A DNA stretch of 64,000 nt from positions 1,116,001 to 1,180,000 of the forward strand of contig NZ_CP024847.1 in assembly GCF_002892535.1 (NCBI RefSeq), written 5' to 3'. Positions 9,184 to 16,317 of this stretch are shown here, one piece after another; the first letter of the stretch is position 1; each line of letters starts with the position of its first letter. The notes under the pieces were generated by a model that saw only the letters and a program-made list of their open reading frames with translations, did not search any database and was not told the origin of the DNA. Source of the stretch: Aquella oligotrophica (GTDB lineage: Bacteria > Pseudomonadota > Gammaproteobacteria > Burkholderiales > UBA11063). A program made the translations under genes and the position numbers.

Positions 9184-12100
9184 TTATGCCCTTTGGGTGA
9201 GTAGGGCAGCGCCAGCAGTAAAACCAGCACCAAATGCACATAGTGCAATTTGTTTTTGGTGTTTGTTTTCAGCCAGAGCCTCACTTAACGCAATCGGAAT
9301 CGTGCACGAAGAAGTATTCCCATAATTAGCAATATTACTAAACATGATGCCGTGTGGCAGTTTCAGCCGACTTTCAACAGCACTTAAGATTCGCTGATTT
9401 GCCTGATGTGGCACGACTAGATTGATTGAACCAACATCGCGATTTGCCAGCTGACAACATTTATGGATTGCCATTGACATAGTTTTAACCGCGACACTAA
9501 AGAGTTTTTTACCTTGCATAGTTATCCCCGCAGATGTATCTGTTGGGATATTTAGAATACTACCGTCTTCTGCATCCGAGCCAATATAGATCTGGTTTAA
9601 TTCTGCCATGCATTCATCCAAATTATCTTCACCACAAATAATTGTAGCTGTTGCAGCATCTGCAAATAAAAATGCTGTTTCAAAATCATCTGGCTTGATT
9701 CGTTGCGATAATGCTTCTGCCGTTATTAGTAATACTCGCGATTGTGGGCGTGTACGTAAGAAATCTTGTGCTAGTTGTAGAGCATAGATGTAGCCACTAC
9801 ATGCCGCATTTATATCGTACGCAGGTATGTTTTGCTCACCGTAGATTTTATTTAATTCATTAAGTACCAGACAAGATACTGATGGTGATTGCAATTGTTC
9901 TGGGCTACACGTTGCGCAGATAATTAGATCAATATTATGCAAGCCTAGTTTATTGGCTTCTAAAGCTTCACAGGCTGCATCCGTAGCGAGCCCTACGGCT
10001 GTTTCACCTTCAGCAAACCAGCAGCGCTGGTGAATCCCTGTCCGCTGAATCAGATCATCATTAGTAAATTCAGGGAAATTTGGCAAAAGTTCCTCATTAG
10101 TAACTACTCTTGAGCCAGTTTTGAAATAAGGTTTAGTCATGCCTACAATTGTAGTTTTTGAGCGAGCTACATACTGAGTGTCTGAAGCGGCTGATTCTCC
10201 AATTTTCCGGCTTAAAATTGGCTTTTTCGGCTTATTGGTTGCTTTTACTAGATTTTCATTGATGCGTAGTTTTAGTAACGCTCCACCAACCATGGCTTTT
10301 TCACCGACTTCAACGCAAATTTCTTCGACAATCCCTTTACATGGAGCAAGGATTTCTCCTGCTGACTTACTAGCTTCAACATCTACTAGTACATCTCCAG
10401 AATTAACTTCGTCACCAATTTTTACATGAATTTCATTGATCTGTACGCTCTCATCCGATGGGCTAGTGCCAATAACTTCTACTGTTAGTAATGATTTATC
10501 TTCACTTTCTTCGCTTTGCCATTCCAGATTTAGATCAAGGAGTTCGGCTGAAGCAGTAAGAATTTTCTCAAAAGATGGTAACACATCTAACTGATTAGGA
10601 AAATTACATGGTACGTAGGTGTCCCCACGGGTTACACGGCGTAATTTAACTGGCTTTTTGGCATATTCAGCAATAGTTGCCAATATATCACCACCAACAC
10701 CACAAGTAAGATTGTCTTCATGGCTAACGATTAACTTACCTGTTTTTTCAGCTGACATTAGAAGTGTTTGCTTATCGTATGGTTTAATTGTCCGTAAATC
10801 AATTACTTCAACTTCGCTCCCAACTTGTTCAAGAGCTTCGGCAACTTGTAAACATAGTGATACGGTATTGCCCCAGCCAACTAGGGTCAGGTCTTTACCA
10901 GTTTTAACTATCCGCGCCTTACTGATAGTTACCAGTTGTTTAGCGACATCTTTTGAGGTCGTATCTTCATTACTACCATTATTTAGTAGTTTTTTAGGAT
11001 ATAAAAAGAGGCTTGGGCGTCCTGATTTAAAAGCCGCATTAAGCATACCCGCTGCATCGGCAGCATTTGATGGCATATAAACATCTAAACCTGGAATATG
11101 GGCAAAAGTTGCTTCATTGGTTTGTGAATGGAACGGTCCAAGTCCAGGGCGATATGCACCACAGGCTGCAAATACGATCACTGGACATTGCCAGCCACCA
11201 TTCGTGCGCCAATACATAGTTGCCATTTCTGCCATGATTTGATTATAGGCAATTGGCAGGAAGTCAGCAAATTGAATAAATGCTACTGGTTTTTTGCCAG
11301 CTAGGGCAAGTCCAGTCGCCATTCCAGCTATAGTCGATTCACTTAATGCTGAATTGATAACTCTGCCCGGATATTTTGTTGAAAGTCCACGGGTAATACC
11401 AAATACATCACCCTTGCCATCTTCAATGTCTTCACCTAGAAGGCAAACATTCGGGTCATTAGCTAGTTGTTCATTAAATACCTGACGCATTGCTTCAAGC
11501 ATTGTAAAGCGCTCTTCACTATTGAAGTCACCACGGTACTCATTGCGAGGGTTTTTTACTGCTTCATTTAAAGGTAATTCGGCACCAAATTCACTAACCG
11601 GGTCTGTGCCCGCGCGTGCTACATCAATTGAATCTCTAACTTGTTTGATGGCTTGTTTTTTAGCAGTTTCTATTTCTTCTATGCTAAATCCATTTTCTAG
11701 CAGATATTTTTGTGCAAGATTTAGTGGATCTTGATCCTGACTTAATTCAAGCTCGGCATCATCGCGATATAATCTTTGATCATCAGCATTTGAGTGGTTA
11801 TCCAGTCTATCTACATTAAATACTATTATTTGTGGTGTTCGGTTTGTCCTAATTTCTTTGATTACTGTTTCTGCCTTAGCTACTTCTGCGAGGGCATTAC
11901 TACCATTAATATAAGTAATTGGAATATCATAAAAAGAATCTACAAAACCATCCGGGCGTGAGAAAAAGGTTTTCCCTTCAGTTCTAGTGGATATTGCTAG
12001 ATTATTATTGTGGATAAAAAATAATACCGGAAGATTACTACGTTTTGCTTCAGCTATTGCTTCAAGAACTTCGCCTTGCTGTGAGGTTCCATCACCTACC

Positions 12101-12513
12101 GAACAATAGATAAGTGGATTATCACTTTCCTCTTTTATTGCGTAGGCAATACCTGTGGCTTGAAGAGCATTATTACCAACAGGTCCAACCAGACTTAATA
12201 CATTTAATTCTGGCGCACTCATGTGTGAAACCATTTGGCGACCTGCTGAATGCGATTCAGCCTTGCATAGTGCGCTATAGAGGAACATCTCATTGCTTAT
12301 CCCACGTGCGAGCATTAATGCCTTATCGCGATAATGACAATGAAGCCAGTCACTTTTTTGTAAAAATGGGGCAATTATTACGCTTCCTTCATGCCCTTTG
12401 CTTGATGCCAGAAAGTTTGCTTCACCACTATTAACTAGTTCGGCTTCTACAATATCTGATTCACGCGAGGCGATCATGAATGAATACAGGGACAATAAAT
12501 CTGCTTGCTGCAT
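9184..12513 (-). CDS. Fusion: 2-oxoacid dehydrogenase E1 alpha + E1 beta + lipoyl-type domain + KAS III
   Basis: A 1109-residue, four-domain protein. Residues 1-320 are a branched-chain 2-oxoacid dehydrogenase E1 alpha: GRQMVSH near 91-97 and a thiamin-diphosphate motif from GDG 140-142 to NN 169-170. Residues 333-660 are E1 beta, with GEDIEDGKGDVFG, the SESTIAG region and FHSQTNEA (His 462). Residues 675-750 are a lipoyl/biotinyl-type domain with Lys 716 in EASK, aligned with the lipoylated Lys of ETDK-type domains. Residues 785-1109 are a KAS III (FabH-like) domain with a complete triad: Cys 905 in AACSG, His 1036 in PHQANQ, Asn 1066 in YGNTS. The E2 acyltransferase core is absent. The likely chemistry is decarboxylation of a 2-oxoacid, acyl transfer to the in-cis lipoyl arm, then condensation or acyl transfer by the KAS domain. 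No pathway genes adjoin; the ribosome-binding site AGGAAG precedes the ATG. Confidence 0.9.
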   Translation of the reverse strand: MQQADLLSLYSFMIASRESDIVEAELVNSGEANFLASSKGHEGSVIIAPFLQKSDWLHCHYRDKALMLARGISNEMFLYSALCKAESHSAGRQMVSHMSAPELNVLSLVGPVGNNALQATGIAYAIKEESDNPLIYCSVGDGTSQQGEVLEAIAEAKRSNLPVLFFIHNNNLAISTRTEGKTFFSRPDGFVDSFYDIPITYINGSNALAEVAKAETVIKEIRTNRTPQIIVFNVDRLDNHSNADDQRLYRDDAELELSQDQDPLNLAQKYLLENGFSIEEIETAKKQAIKQVRDSIDVARAGTDPVSEFGAELPLNEAVKNPRNEYRGDFNSEERFTMLEAMRQVFNEQLANDPNVCLLGEDIEDGKGDVFGITRGLSTKYPGRVINSALSESTIAGMATGLALAGKKPVAFIQFADFLPIAYNQIMAEMATMYWRTNGGWQCPVIVFAACGAYRPGLGPFHSQTNEATFAHIPGLDVYMPSNAADAAGMLNAAFKSGRPSLFLYPKKLLNNGSNEDTTSKDVAKQLVTISKARIVKTGKDLTLVGWGNTVSLCLQVAEALEQVGSEVEVIDLRTIKPYDKQTLLMSAEKTGKLIVSHEDNLTCGVGGDILATIAEYAKKPVKLRRVTRGDTYVPCNFPNQLDVLPSFEKILTASAELLDLNLEWQSEESEDKSLLTVEVIGTSPSDESVQINEIHVKIGDEVNSGDVLVDVEASKSAGEILAPCKGIVEEICVEVGEKAMVGGALLKLRINENLVKATNKPKKPILSRKIGESAASDTQYVARSKTTIVGMTKPYFKTGSRVVTNEELLPNFPEFTNDDLIQRTGIHQRCWFAEGETAVGLATDAACEALEANKLGLHNIDLIICATCSPEQLQSPSVSCLVLNELNKIYGEQNIPAYDINAACSGYIYALQLAQDFLRTRPQSRVLLITAEALSQRIKPDDFETAFLFADAATATIICGEDNLDECMAELNQIYIGSDAEDGSILNIPTDTSAGITMQGKKLFSVAVKTMSMAIHKCCQLANRDVGSINLVVPHQANQRILSAVESRLKLPHGIMFSNIANYGNTSSCTIPIALSEALAENKHQKQIALCAFGAGFTAGAALLTQRA

Positions 12514-12790: not shown

Positions 12791-13504
12791 ATGTTAGCCG
12801 CAATTCGTGAAGTAACCCATCCCGATGGTGTTACGGTTTCTAGTTATAAATATCTCCCCACTCCAGCACATATAACTTTGATGGCATTCATCATGAAGCA
12901 TGTCAAAGTGAATGATAATAATTTATTTATCAATCAACAAAATAAGATGATAAATAGCAATCTCGGGATTTTGAAGCGCTTTATTCCTGGGGTTTCTCAT
13001 AATGAGTTGCTTGATTTGCTTGAAGATTTTTGTAATCGTACCCTAACTACCAAACAATTGGCTAAAGATGGTGAGATTGATAATCTTGAAAGCACAACTT
13101 TTATTTCTGCTTATACCTACAATCGTAATACTAGGCAAGTTGCAATTGAACTTAGTTATCGGCTAATTCCATTTATCCTCTACATTAAGCAACAATACAT
13201 TGGTGAACGTTGGAAATATTCAGCCAGTTTTACTTCTAGTTATTCAACATTAATTTACGACATTATCCTTACCAGCCTTGATAAAAATACCTCTGGAATT
13301 AGATTTAACCTTGAACAAATCAAGGAAATGCTGGGGATAGAACCAAAGACTTATCAAATATATAGTAATTTTAAGCGGAAGGTTCTTAATGTCGCTATTA
13401 GTGAGATAAATTTACGCTCTGACATGATTATTGAGTTAATTGAGCATAAGGAAAATCGTAAAGTTACTGATATTGAATTTGTGTTTAAACGAAGCAATGG
13501 ATGA
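12791..13504 (+). CDS. Rep_3-family replication initiator protein (RepB-like)
   Basis: A 237-residue soluble protein. The segment from about 130 to 237 has the pattern of plasmid initiators of the Rep_3 family: FTSSYSTLIYDIIL, a region LEQIKEMLGI, then Y-x-x-YSNFKRKVLNVAISEINLRSD and a final KVTDIEFVFKR. The N-terminal half matches the first winged-helix domain in length. In plasmids such proteins open the origin by binding iterons. Here the gene stands in a chromosomal context, between the E1/KAS fusion (divergent) and the ykoEDC operon (convergent), with no parA, mob or toxin-antitoxin genes nearby. It may be a remnant of an integrated plasmid, or a host-adopted regulator. No strong ribosome-binding site precedes the ATG. 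The frame is intact over the whole family length. Confidence 0.8.
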   Translation: MLAAIREVTHPDGVTVSSYKYLPTPAHITLMAFIMKHVKVNDNNLFINQQNKMINSNLGILKRFIPGVSHNELLDLLEDFCNRTLTTKQLAKDGEIDNLESTTFISAYTYNRNTRQVAIELSYRLIPFILYIKQQYIGERWKYSASFTSSYSTLIYDIILTSLDKNTSGIRFNLEQIKEMLGIEPKTYQIYSNFKRKVLNVAISEINLRSDMIIELIEHKENRKVTDIEFVFKRSNG

Positions 13505-13574: not shown

Positions 13575-14261
13575 CTATGTTAAATAAATCAAAAATCTAT
13601 ATGCAACTAAAAATATTAAATTTAATCCCAGAATGAGATAATCTAAGAACTTGAATTTATTGGTTTCATGACTATACGTACGCTTTTTATTTAATCCGCG
13701 ATTAAACATGCTAATACTAACATTTTGGGCGTAGCGAGCACTTGCCACTAGTAGTGGGAGGATAATTTTTGGCGAATAGAAGCTTCGTTGGTAACGCATT
13801 TGATATGCGATCTGAATGCGTCTAAACTCATCGGCAAAATGACTAAATGCATTTAGGGTAGAGAGTAAGCCAAAGCCAATGGCTACAGGTAATATTTTTC
13901 TTTGCATTAATTCAAGCATGATTTTTTCTTTAGGCATGTGGATCATAAATGCAAAGGAAATCATGGTAATAGTAAAAAGTCGGATACACAGATTAAGCGC
14001 ATTCATATGACTTATTTCTGCATCATTGTTAGCTGTAAATAGATGTCCAGTTAGATAACTTGCTCCGATCGCTGGGCTTAGACATAAGCAAAATAGGAGT
14101 AGTTTTTTCCAGTGAATTTCTCTAGTTAATAATAGTAAGTTACCCACTGCGATTAAGAGGCAAAATAAATATTCCTGATAAGTCGAATAAAGTGCTGTTG
14201 CAAGCAACAATATAATGGGGATGATAAGGTAATTTAGCTGATTAAATTTTAAATTATGCAT
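13575..14261 (-). CDS. ykoC: ECF transporter T component (YkoC-like)
   Basis: A 228-residue membrane protein with five or so hydrophobic segments. It has the T-component pattern: RRIQIAYQMRYQRSF in the cytoplasmic coupling region and ARYAQNVSISMFNRGLN, which holds the conserved Ala/Arg-Gly coupling helix motif that contacts the ATPases. Its start overlaps the end of the ATPase gene by 13 bases, as expected for translational coupling. Together with the two upstream genes it forms a YkoE-YkoD-YkoC energy-coupling-factor transporter, known to import thiamin or its hydroxymethylpyrimidine precursor. The TPP riboswitch before the first gene supports this assignment. Confidence 0.85.
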   Translation of the reverse strand: MHNLKFNQLNYLIIPIILLLATALYSTYQEYLFCLLIAVGNLLLLTREIHWKKLLLFCLCLSPAIGASYLTGHLFTANNDAEISHMNALNLCIRLFTITMISFAFMIHMPKEKIMLELMQRKILPVAIGFGLLSTLNAFSHFADEFRRIQIAYQMRYQRSFYSPKIILPLLVASARYAQNVSISMFNRGLNKKRTYSHETNKFKFLDYLILGLNLIFLVAYRFLIYLT

Positions 14262-15610
14262 GGCTCTAGGCTTTTATTAACTAACTGATATGTTTTTTTA
14301 GTGATACTTCTTAGAAAATCTGGATCATGGCTAATAATTAATAAGCTAGTTCCCTCGTTTGCAATTTTCACCAGTATATTTCCAAGGATTTGCTTATTCT
14401 TCAGATCTTGTCCGAAGGTTGGTTCATCAAGTAACAATAGTTGTGGCTTTTTATTTAATATAATACCCAGTGAAAGTCTGCGCTTTTGTCCTTCGGATAA
14501 GCAAAATGGATTATTTTTTAGGTGCTTATCTAAACCTAGCTCTGTTGCTAGTTCAAGATTTCCATTTAACTCCATTTCAACCGCATTATGGATAAAATGT
14601 GATTCTGGATTTTGCCATAATAGGCTAATATCGTTCCATAATTGTTTTTTAGCGATTTTTCCAACTGGCTGACTATTATATATAATTTGATTTTTGCTAG
14701 GAATAATCCCACAAATAAGCTTAAATAATGTGGATTTACCTGCACCATTTTTACCAATTATGCCGATAATTTCACCCTTGCCAATATCCAGATTTATCTT
14801 TTCCAGTAATATTTCAGAATTATCATAGTTGAAATTAAGATTGTCTATCTTTAATAATGTTTTATGCTCTAGATTAAATGGCAGTGGATTTATCACAGGG
14901 AGACTCTGATTCCAATCTTCATCATTCAATTTCTCTTCATGAATATTTCCATTTATATCGATGTTGATTACTCGGTTTACCAAGGGCTGAAAATAGTGAT
15001 AGTTATGTTCGATGATTACTACAACTTTATCCGCTATATGTTCTTTTATCAAATTAACCAGTTTATAAGCTGAATCTGGATCGAGAAATGCGGTTGGCTC
15101 GTCAAGGAGTAATACTTCTGGTTCAAGAAGTAGGATAGCTAAAAGATTAATGATCTGTTTTTGTCCACCAGATAGGCTTTTAACACTTCTCTCTAGTAAG
15201 TGAGAAACCGCAAATTTCTGGCTAATATCAGTTACTAGCTGAATTATTTTCTCGCGTGGGGTAGATAGATTTTCAAGCCCAAAGGCAAGTTCATCAAAAA
15301 CTGTATGGCAAATTAACTGGCTATCCGGGTTTTGTTGGAGATAGCCAATTTTTAATGATTCTTCTGCTGAGATAGCCCTTATGCTTTTATTATGGAATAG
15401 GATCTCGCCAGTGATTTTTCCATGAATCAAATGCGGGATCAGACCTTTGAGTGCCATTAGAAGTGTTGATTTTCCACTTCCTGACGCGCCTTTGAGTAAA
15501 ATGCATTCACCATGATGGATCGCTAACTCACCATTTATTTCAATCTTCTGTTTGCTAAATGGATATTGAAACGAGAAATCTTTCAAATAGAAAACGTTAG
15601 TCTTGGTCAT
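14249..15610 (-). CDS. ykoD: ECF transporter ATPase with two fused ATP-binding domains (YkoD-like)
   Basis: A 453-residue protein with two ABC ATPase domains in one chain. The first (about 1-230) has Walker A GASGSGKST, the Q-loop LQQNPDSQL, the signature LSGGQ and Walker B LLLDEPTAFLD. The second (about 250-450) has GKNGAGKST, LWQNPESHF, a signature LSEGQ and LLLDEPTFGQD. ECF modules usually have separate EcfA and EcfA' chains; the fused form is typical of YkoD, which partners with YkoE and YkoC. It powers uptake of thiamin or hydroxymethylpyrimidine. The gene overlaps ykoE at its start (14 bases) and ykoC at its end (13 bases), so the three are co-translated. Confidence 0.92.
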   Translation of the reverse strand: MTKTNVFYLKDFSFQYPFSKQKIEINGELAIHHGECILLKGASGSGKSTLLMALKGLIPHLIHGKITGEILFHNKSIRAISAEESLKIGYLQQNPDSQLICHTVFDELAFGLENLSTPREKIIQLVTDISQKFAVSHLLERSVKSLSGGQKQIINLLAILLLEPEVLLLDEPTAFLDPDSAYKLVNLIKEHIADKVVVIIEHNYHYFQPLVNRVINIDINGNIHEEKLNDEDWNQSLPVINPLPFNLEHKTLLKIDNLNFNYDNSEILLEKINLDIGKGEIIGIIGKNGAGKSTLFKLICGIIPSKNQIIYNSQPVGKIAKKQLWNDISLLWQNPESHFIHNAVEMELNGNLELATELGLDKHLKNNPFCLSEGQKRRLSLGIILNKKPQLLLLDEPTFGQDLKNKQILGNILVKIANEGTSLLIISHDPDFLRSITKKTYQLVNKSLEPCII

Positions 15611-16163
15611 GGCTAATGCGATATTGATTAAGAACTCCTGCTTTAGCTAGCTGATTGGCAAGATATCTTGATAGTAAGCCACCGATTATTGCCGCAGAAA
15701 TAATATTACACCCTAGGTTTAATAGATTATATTTTAAACTTAGTTCACCATAGCCAAACCAGTAGTAAGTAACTAGATAGCCACCGATTGCAGAGACTAC
15801 ACCACCTAGAGCACAAATCGATTTACTGGATACTTTATAGCGGCAAATAAGAAATAATATTTCTACGGGTAGTCCTTGACAAGCCCCCGAAATAACAGCT
15901 GAAATACCCCATTGTGAAATTAATCCTTCTACTGTTGCGGCGATAGTTTCGCCAAGTAGCGCACTTCCCGGTTTACGAATTATATAGCCAAAAAAGATTC
16001 CCCCCATATGCCAAAACCCCTCCAGTAAGCCGCTGATTCCTAGTGGTTTCAGTACTGGCGAGATGATATTGTAGGCAAATGAGTAAGCCCACCAAGCAAT
16101 CCCAAGGCTACTTGCTAGAATACAAATAAAAATAGTTTCGGATAAAGTGAGACGATTTGACAT
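15597..16163 (-). CDS. ykoE: ECF transporter substrate-binding S component (YkoE-like, thiamin/HMP)
   Basis: A membrane protein of about 188 residues with five to six hydrophobic helices, ending with GGLLSRYLANQLAKAGVLNQY. The helix content, length, the neighbouring fused ATPase and T component, and the upstream TPP riboswitch together point to YkoE, the S component for thiamin or hydroxymethylpyrimidine. I place the start at the ATG at 16163, since AAGGA lies 7 bases before it. The frame could begin at the ATG at 16190, but that codon has no ribosome-binding site and lies in the loop of a hairpin that would hide the real one. The region GTGSALLGETIAAT-like (residues 85-100 area) forms a cytoplasmic loop. 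Confidence 0.85.
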   Translation of the reverse strand: MSNRLTLSETIFICILASSLGIAWWAYSFAYNIISPVLKPLGISGLLEGFWHMGGIFFGYIIRKPGSALLGETIAATVEGLISQWGISAVISGACQGLPVEILFLICRYKVSSKSICALGGVVSAIGGYLVTYYWFGYGELSLKYNLLNLGCNIISAAIIGGLLSRYLANQLAKAGVLNQYRISHDQD

Positions 16164-16171
16164 TATGAAGT

Positions 16172-16199
16172 CCTTATAAGCGTTAAACATCTTATAAGG
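16172..16199 (-). promoter_or_regulatory. Shine-Dalgarno-sequestering hairpin of the TPP riboswitch
   Basis: CCTTATAAG and CTTATAAGG (9-base perfect arms at 16172-16180 and 16191-16199, 10-base loop) form a hairpin in the leader RNA. The second arm in the RNA contains AAGG of the AAGGA site for the ATG at 16163, so folding would block translation start. It is placed 30-50 bases after the aptamer, as expected for an expression platform. Confidence 0.6.
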
Positions 16200-16224
16200 G
16201 AAAGGTGCTATTTTTAGGTTGAAG

Positions 16225-16312
16225 CAACACTCTCCCTTGCGCAGGTACTAACCTGATCAGGTTTAAAGGGTATTTCTCAGCTAACATTATTAATGCCAGC
16301 ACCCCGGTGATA
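16225..16312 (-). ncRNA. TPP riboswitch (THI element)
   Basis: Read on the minus strand, the region has all conserved blocks of the thiamin-pyrophosphate aptamer in order: GGGGTGCTGGC, GCTGAGAAATACCC, AACCTGATCAGG and CCTGCGCAAGGGAG. It precedes ykoEDC on the same strand, and is expected to lower expression of the uptake operon when TPP is plentiful. It is followed by a hairpin that can hide the ribosome-binding site, so translational control is the most likely mode. Confidence 0.95.
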
Positions 16313-16317
16313 AGCAT

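Follow-up and report, generated by a model that had tools for sequence, protein, structure and literature searches.

A conserved E1-lipoyl-KAS III fusion protein of Aquella oligotrophica and other bacteria as a candidate starter-unit synthase for branched fatty acids

Architecture of the fusion gene

We analysed a stretch of 64,000 nucleotides from the genome of Aquella oligotrophica (the window), in which a single gene at 9184-12513 on the minus strand encodes the alpha and beta parts of a 2-oxoacid dehydrogenase E1, a lipoyl-type domain and a 3-oxoacyl-(acyl carrier protein) synthase III (KAS III) in one polypeptide. The gene is one ATG-started frame of 1109 residues, with the stop codon within these coordinates, and the plus strand of the same interval is dense with stops. 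An initial annotation had proposed this four-part fusion without giving the strand; it is borne out by six Pfam domains, all exceeding their curated cut-offs and including the four families that it had named (E1_dh, Transket_pyr, Biotin_lipoyl and ACP_syn_III). E1 alpha occupies residues 12-301 (11611..12480; E1_dh) and holds the motif for thiamine diphosphate (ThDP), from GDG 140-142 to N169/N170. E1 beta follows as a pyrimidine-binding domain with His462 (residues 337-511, 10981..11505; Transket_pyr) and a transketolase C-terminal domain (residues 532-643, 10585..10920; Transketolase_C). The lipoyl-type domain, delimited by Biotin_lipoyl and AlphaFold2 at residues 689-749 (10267..10449), carries Lys716 (codon 10366..10368), the predicted lipoylation site. 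A disordered linker (residues 771-786, 10156..10203) leads to the FabH-like KAS III domain at about residues 790-1106 (9196..10146), which is supported by Pfam (ACP_syn_III at 899-962, ACP_syn_III_C at 1023-1105), by curated models and by fold and sequence matches, and in which alignment places the nucleophile Cys905 (codon 9799..9801), His1036 (9406..9408) and Asn1066 (9316..9318). All these features lie on the minus strand. The residues singled out in the initial annotation (GDG 140-142, N169/N170, H462, K716, C905, H1036 and N1066) are indeed found at those numbers; those of the ThDP motif and the KAS III triad align, and all the residues named recur in 17 same-genus fusions, apart from N169, which is Asp in 2 of the 17.

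The E1 half thus has the features of an alpha2-beta2-type enzyme (E1_dh, Transket_pyr, Transketolase_C, the ThDP motif and the E1-beta His), and its solved relatives include pyruvate dehydrogenase (PDH) and branched-chain 2-oxoacid dehydrogenase (BCKDH) alike. The core of the dihydrolipoyl acyltransferase (E2), 2-oxoacid_dh, was rightly said to be missing: neither it nor the peripheral-subunit-binding domain nor the acyl carrier protein (ACP) domain PP-binding is among the 14 Pfam families that match the window protein at E <= 1. In a wider sample of 40 members, chosen from 71 aligned fusions, all 40 have the six Pfam domains, and the 10 families that were matched in this sample at E <= 1e-5 do not include these three. 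With an alignment of 40 fusions supplied, AlphaFold2 gave the window protein a mean per-residue confidence (pLDDT) of 89.6 and a predicted template modelling score (pTM) of 0.69; the sole run of at least three residues with pLDDT below 50 is 771-786, the linker between the lipoyl and KAS III domains. The top Foldseek matches of the predicted structure are the KAS III of Aquifex aeolicus and E1-beta chains. Among curated models, the KAS III part scores 223.9 bits against TIGR00747 (fabH), under its cut-off of 292.1, and passes the broader PRK09352 (259.7 against a cut-off of 249). We saw no NCBIfam model that spans the whole chain.

Distribution and gene neighbourhood

The four-domain form, unfamiliar when the gene was first annotated, proved in a taxonomic survey to be widespread, with 79 distinct loci in several phyla. 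These loci are the best 80 of 83 confirmed matches in a scan of named genomes, and the carriers among them are Francisellaceae, Fangia, Cysteiniphilum, Facilibium, Marinobacter halodurans, Accumulibacter and Tabrizicola, together with Planctomycetes, Spirochaetes, Verrucomicrobia, Kiritimatiellae, one Armatimonadota genome and the cyanobacterium Xenococcus PCC 7305; close relatives of the window appear under the titles Neisseriaceae, Neisseriales or Burkholderiales. A second scan covered the same genus and order, its figures being taken from the matches listed, ordered by score. Of 23 same-genus genomes (the window genome counted), 17 have the fusion whole and in a single open frame, and three more have it partial or split (G001, G020 and G021; G and L numbers are our labels for genomes and loci). 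Among the matches listed it is absent from the other three, G008, G013 and G019 (completeness 52, 68 and 81%), and from all 18 genomes of other families of the order. Only two of 398 evenly drawn Pseudomonadota genomes carry it, the window's own included.

For comparison of residues we aligned 71 fusions, namely that of the window and 70 loci (16 shared with same-genus genomes and 54 others), which are related sequences and not independent events. Nine of the 79 loci were left out, no plus-strand frame of more than 1050 residues having been picked there: L099 has two overlapping frames, a longer opposite-strand frame was picked in L090, L092 and L115, and L083, L102, L116, L118 and L129 are partial matches. 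L099 is the same locus as L042, in G020, where the fusion gene is broken into these two frames. An error of assembly or annotation that joins neighbouring genes, for which the split copy of G020 might speak, is refuted by the single open frames in 17 of 23 same-genus genomes and in 70 of 79 named-scan loci, and we give it practically no credence. The architecture is genuine and conserved, and a chance or assembly join is excluded.

The fusion is rare and patchy yet crosses phyla, which suggests horizontal transfer. The distances of the E1 and KAS parts co-vary (Mantel r 0.84, with 0 of 1000 permutations as high), as expected if both halves have travelled together. Plasmid searches at E <= 1e-30 gave 653 records with the whole fusion, and 206 records were found with the lipoyl-KAS half; none covers more than 80% of the query in either case. 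No E1-lipoyl-KAS III protein was found among the titles and abstracts listed from the open-access literature, which is weak evidence of its absence from print.

As the initial annotation held, the fusion has no acyl carrier or pathway genes next to it in the window; its two neighbours there are a divergent gene resembling a Rep3 initiator and a convergent, unrelated gene. The former, a Rep3-type plasmid initiator at 12791-13504, belongs to a cluster of open reading frames (ORFs) that also stands beside the fusion in L026-L030 (Pfam on the window copy only). A neighbouring PlsC-like acyltransferase occurs at five same-genus loci (Pfam on one), LysR and TopA recur at Fastidiosibacter/Fangia-type loci, and aconitase recurs in Spirochaetes. 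These neighbours are confined to single clades and look like local synteny, and an assignment of function from the neighbourhood was rejected since neighbours recur within clades only. Beyond the Rep3 gene of the window, a thiamine pyrophosphate (TPP) riboswitch at 16214-16316 on the minus strand (Rfam RF00059; score 54.8 bits, cut-off 54.3) is followed by three genes (13575-16190) that resemble a thiamine/hydroxymethylpyrimidine (HMP) transporter of the energy-coupling factor (ECF) type. The same transporter gene clusters are found near the fusion in relatives L026 and L028, placing a ThDP enzyme beside thiamine uptake.

Conserved residues and metabolic context

Across the 71 fusions, Lys716 and the E1-beta His462 are invariant (71/71 each), and EADKA, the usual form, is among the versions of the lipoyl motif. 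The KAS Cys, His and Asn are each kept in 70 of 71, L114 being the sole exception at all three. Statements taken from published papers here and below refer to excerpts of these papers. In FabH, Trp32 and Arg151 sandwich the adenine of coenzyme A (CoA) (PMC4606726). Neither residue occurs at its column in any fusion (Trp 0/71, Arg 0/71), whereas both are kept in 22 of 22 free FabHs, namely 20 loci of the same genus and order found by tblastn, E. coli FabH and Aquella's own FabH; Arg249 is retained in 70 of 71 fusions. A further position, the Phe87 gate, limits E. coli FabH to acetyl when the residue is bulky, and Thr there allows longer chains (PMC3734052). The fusions have Ser (35), Thr (34), Ala (1) or Leu (1) at this position, and 18 of the 20 free FabH loci have Phe.

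The A. oligotrophica genome is one contig of 2,820,660 bp, and the fusion is the sole alpha/beta-type E1 found in it. E1_dh is matched at three places: the fusion, the 2-oxoglutarate dehydrogenase E1 (SucA) and a 618-residue frame at about 472 kb, which also has a DXS-like match. The PDH E1 of this genome is AceE. Two E2 cores are encoded, SucB and AceF, both close to the E1 that they belong with. There are two lipoamide dehydrogenases above the curated cut-off, places matching the branched-chain aminotransferase family Aminotran_4, and an ordinary plsX-fabH-fabD cluster at about 851 kb, whose FabH keeps Phe87; no match in the genome was found for hydroxymethylglutaryl-CoA (HMG-CoA) synthase, which would mark a mevalonate-type route to isovaleryl. 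Because the remaining E1s and E2s are AceE, SucA, SucB and AceF and HMG-CoA synthase has no match, the fusion appears, from gene content, to be the only candidate found for making isovaleryl from a 2-oxoacid. AceF itself seems split into a 211-residue lipoyl part and a 297-residue catalytic part (genome positions 2606003-2607630; L167 1004-2631), which form one longer frame in several relatives, and an Aminotran_4 gene extends over two neighbouring frames of 130 and 182 residues (1769953-1770623).

The fatty acid iso-C15:0 requires an isovaleryl starter, and this need points to 4-methyl-2-oxopentanoate derived from leucine. In A. oligotrophica P08T, a member of Neisseriaceae from tap water, iso-C15:0 is the largest fatty acid at 36.2%, alongside C14:0 (15.9%) and C16:0 (9.9%), and no second iso or anteiso acid reaches the 1% listing threshold (PMC6612550, Table 3). 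Tabrizicola (Aliitabrizicola) rongguiensis also carries the fusion (L105) and is the other carrier with fatty-acid data; none were found in the literature for the remaining named carriers, including in the excerpts of PMC12798033 and PMC12661370.

A proposed route from 2-oxoacid to branched starter unit

We propose that the fusion makes starter units for type II fatty acid synthesis (FAS II) by itself: isovaleryl would pass from E1 to the lipoyl arm and on to KAS III, bypassing E2 and CoA; we regard this as the probable function, with moderate confidence. The ThDP-dependent E1 half would decarboxylate a branched 2-oxoacid, of which leucine-derived 4-methyl-2-oxopentanoate is the likeliest, and load the acyl group by reductive acylation on a lipoyl group at Lys716. 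The arm, swinging on its linker, would hand isovaleryl straight to Cys905, KAS III thereby taking the role of acyl acceptor that is usually held by E2 and CoA. Condensation with malonyl-ACP would then give 5-methyl-3-oxohexanoyl-ACP, which ordinary FAS II could elongate to iso-C15:0, and the dihydrolipoyl arm would be reoxidised by a lipoamide dehydrogenase of the cell. We infer the lipoylation of Lys716, the substrate, the lipoyl-to-Cys transfer, the malonyl-ACP acceptor and the link to iso-C15:0; the order E1, lipoyl, Cys905 is the simplest reading because the chain has no E2 and its KAS III has no CoA-adenine contacts. The initial annotation had likewise suggested transfer from lipoyl to KAS III without free acyl-CoA, giving branched starters. 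The architecture agrees with this, and partial support comes from the loss of the CoA-adenine residues in 71/71, the invariant lipoyl Lys, the iso-C15:0 of the likely host and the lack of another alpha/beta E1 in the genome; the fatty acids of T. rongguiensis, given below, speak against it. Also in favour of the proposal are the Ser or Thr at the Phe87 gate, the joint divergence of the E1 and KAS halves, the lipoamide dehydrogenases, the Aminotran_4 places and the missing HMG-CoA synthase match, together with the similarity of the E1 half to Streptomyces E1s and the Photorhabdus precedent, both described below.

Several observations weigh against this proposal. The highest NCBIfam scores of the E1 half are those of PDH models, all far under cut-off, and its description as branched-chain in the initial annotation exceeds the sequence. 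Moreover, in 5 of 19 same-genus relative loci (L032, L033, L037, L038 and L039; Pfam on L032 and L033) the next gene upstream, which shares the strand of the fusion and is a few tens of bases away or overlaps it, encodes a malic enzyme with a phosphotransacetylase (PTA)-like domain. Malic enzyme makes pyruvate, and both points would suit a variant in which E1 forms acetyl-lipoyl and KAS III forms acetoacetyl-ACP, straight chains being started from pyruvate without acetyl-CoA. It may instead supply NADPH, and we consider the variant unlikely: the PDH models score far under cut-off, AceE and an ordinary FabH with Phe87 would make a second acetyl-starter route needless in Aquella, and 69 of 71 fusions have Ser or Thr in place of the acetyl-favouring gate residue Phe87 (PMC3734052).

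The entrance of the KAS III part also retains some features against the bypass of CoA. In 18 of 71 fusions the column of E. coli Thr28 holds a Trp, which is four residues away from the Trp32 column and could still stack on an adenine; Arg36 is retained in 54 of 71. CoA binding by the fused KAS III is therefore weakened on paper, yet possible. Such binding would be used if the E1-lipoyl part worked with a separate E2 (AceF or SucB) to release free acyl-CoA, which the fused KAS III would take up as FabH does, the fusion serving for proximity. The E2 proteins needed for this are encoded in the genome. Nevertheless, Trp32 and Arg151, which free FabHs keep, are lost in 71/71, and no E2 gene was recognised among the examined neighbours, the ORFs of which were annotated in part. 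We find this explanation quite unlikely as well.

Further points concern the product. T. rongguiensis has the gene, and in the excerpt of its description C18:1w7c alone exceeds 10% and there is no major branched fatty acid (PMC11092380). In Xenococcus the genes after the fusion encode a short-chain dehydrogenase and a fatty-acid hydroxylase, and the KAS III part matches BioZ structures, among others, in fold and sequence. In at least some clades the product might then be other than membrane fatty acids, such as a signal, a pigment, a ketone or a BioZ-like precursor of biotin type. This is improbable in our view, considering that no biosynthetic cluster recurs beside the gene in the loci examined and that P08T, the other likely host with fatty-acid data, is rich in iso-C15:0 (PMC6612550). 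A biotin role of the BioZ kind was itself rejected, since ordinary FabHs match the KAS III part as well or better. Finally, P08T, the one strain that carries the fatty-acid link, was grown on the rich medium R2A (PMC6612550), and Staphylococcus aureus can take branched precursors from acids of the medium via acyl-CoA synthetase (PMC10026030). In addition, no conserved partner across clades was found at the 19 same-genus relative loci and the 79 named-scan loci.

The proposed route can be compared with known couplings of a 2-oxoacid dehydrogenase to a condensing enzyme. BkdABC of Photorhabdus is reported to form a 5-methyl-3-oxohexanoyl thioester and to yield iso-fatty acids in E. coli (PMC4578411, PMC3838401, PMC8248439). 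It is encoded by three genes, and its BkdB holds an ACP domain that needs a phosphopantetheinyl transferase (PMC4578411). By published description, the fusion would resemble BkdABC in coupling a 2-oxoacid dehydrogenase to iso-fatty acids; it differs in being one chain with neither ACP domain nor E2 core. Another comparable system lies on Streptomyces plasmids (L137, L138 and L139), where an E1 alpha-beta gene stands directly before a megasynthase that starts with lipoyl, E2, ACP and ketosynthase (KS) domains. The E1 half of the fusion is 34-42% identical to these E1s and 27-30% identical to one ordinary alpha-beta E1. Both systems tie a related E1 alpha-beta to a lipoyl domain and a ketosynthase, but the Streptomyces E1 is a separate gene and E2 and ACP are placed between its lipoyl domain and a KS of KAS I/II type, whereas in the fusion KAS III directly follows the lipoyl domain. 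The arrangement at L137-L139 is a natural loading unit from E1 to polyketide, and these loci may be of the streptogramin cluster type.

The fusion shares with alpha2-beta2 BCKDH and PDH the E1 fold, the catalytic residues and a lipoyl domain with the usual Lys, and differs in having KAS III instead of the E2 core and subunit-binding domain. Likewise, it has the lipoyl domain and conserved Lys of an E2, without the catalytic core or the subunit-binding domain. From FabH and other KAS III enzymes, of which it has the fold, the Cys-His-Asn triad and Arg249, it departs by its attachment to E1 and lipoyl domains, by the loss of Trp32, Arg151 and Phe87 and by a score under the TIGR00747 cut-off. The fusion is thus a variant of the known E1-to-condensing-enzyme couplings and is not BkdABC, FabH or E2, because, when tested, it proved to lack defining features of all three. 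Photorhabdus BkdABC and the Streptomyces loci indicate that E1-lipoyl units can feed condensing enzymes, and by this analogy the fusion would be a version that dispenses with E2 and ACP.

We lean, by a narrow balance, towards the view that the family is an E2-free and CoA-free 2-oxoacid dehydrogenase, present as one polypeptide over several phyla, which passes the lipoyl-bound acyl group directly to the KAS III Cys and so starts chains from a 2-oxoacid. Branched fatty acids are usually thought to start from an acyl-CoA that a multi-protein dehydrogenase complex makes and a free FabH uses. If the view is true, lipoyl-bound acyl groups would have a third fate, beside transfer by E2 to CoA and by E2 to ACP, and decarboxylation would be coupled to carbon-carbon bond formation without CoA in one compact enzyme. 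It raises the testable question of whether a lipoyl arm feeds a condensing enzyme directly. Such an enzyme would also allow a laboratory host to be equipped for branched fatty acids with one gene, and would account for iso-fatty acids in bacteria without a separate BCKDH.

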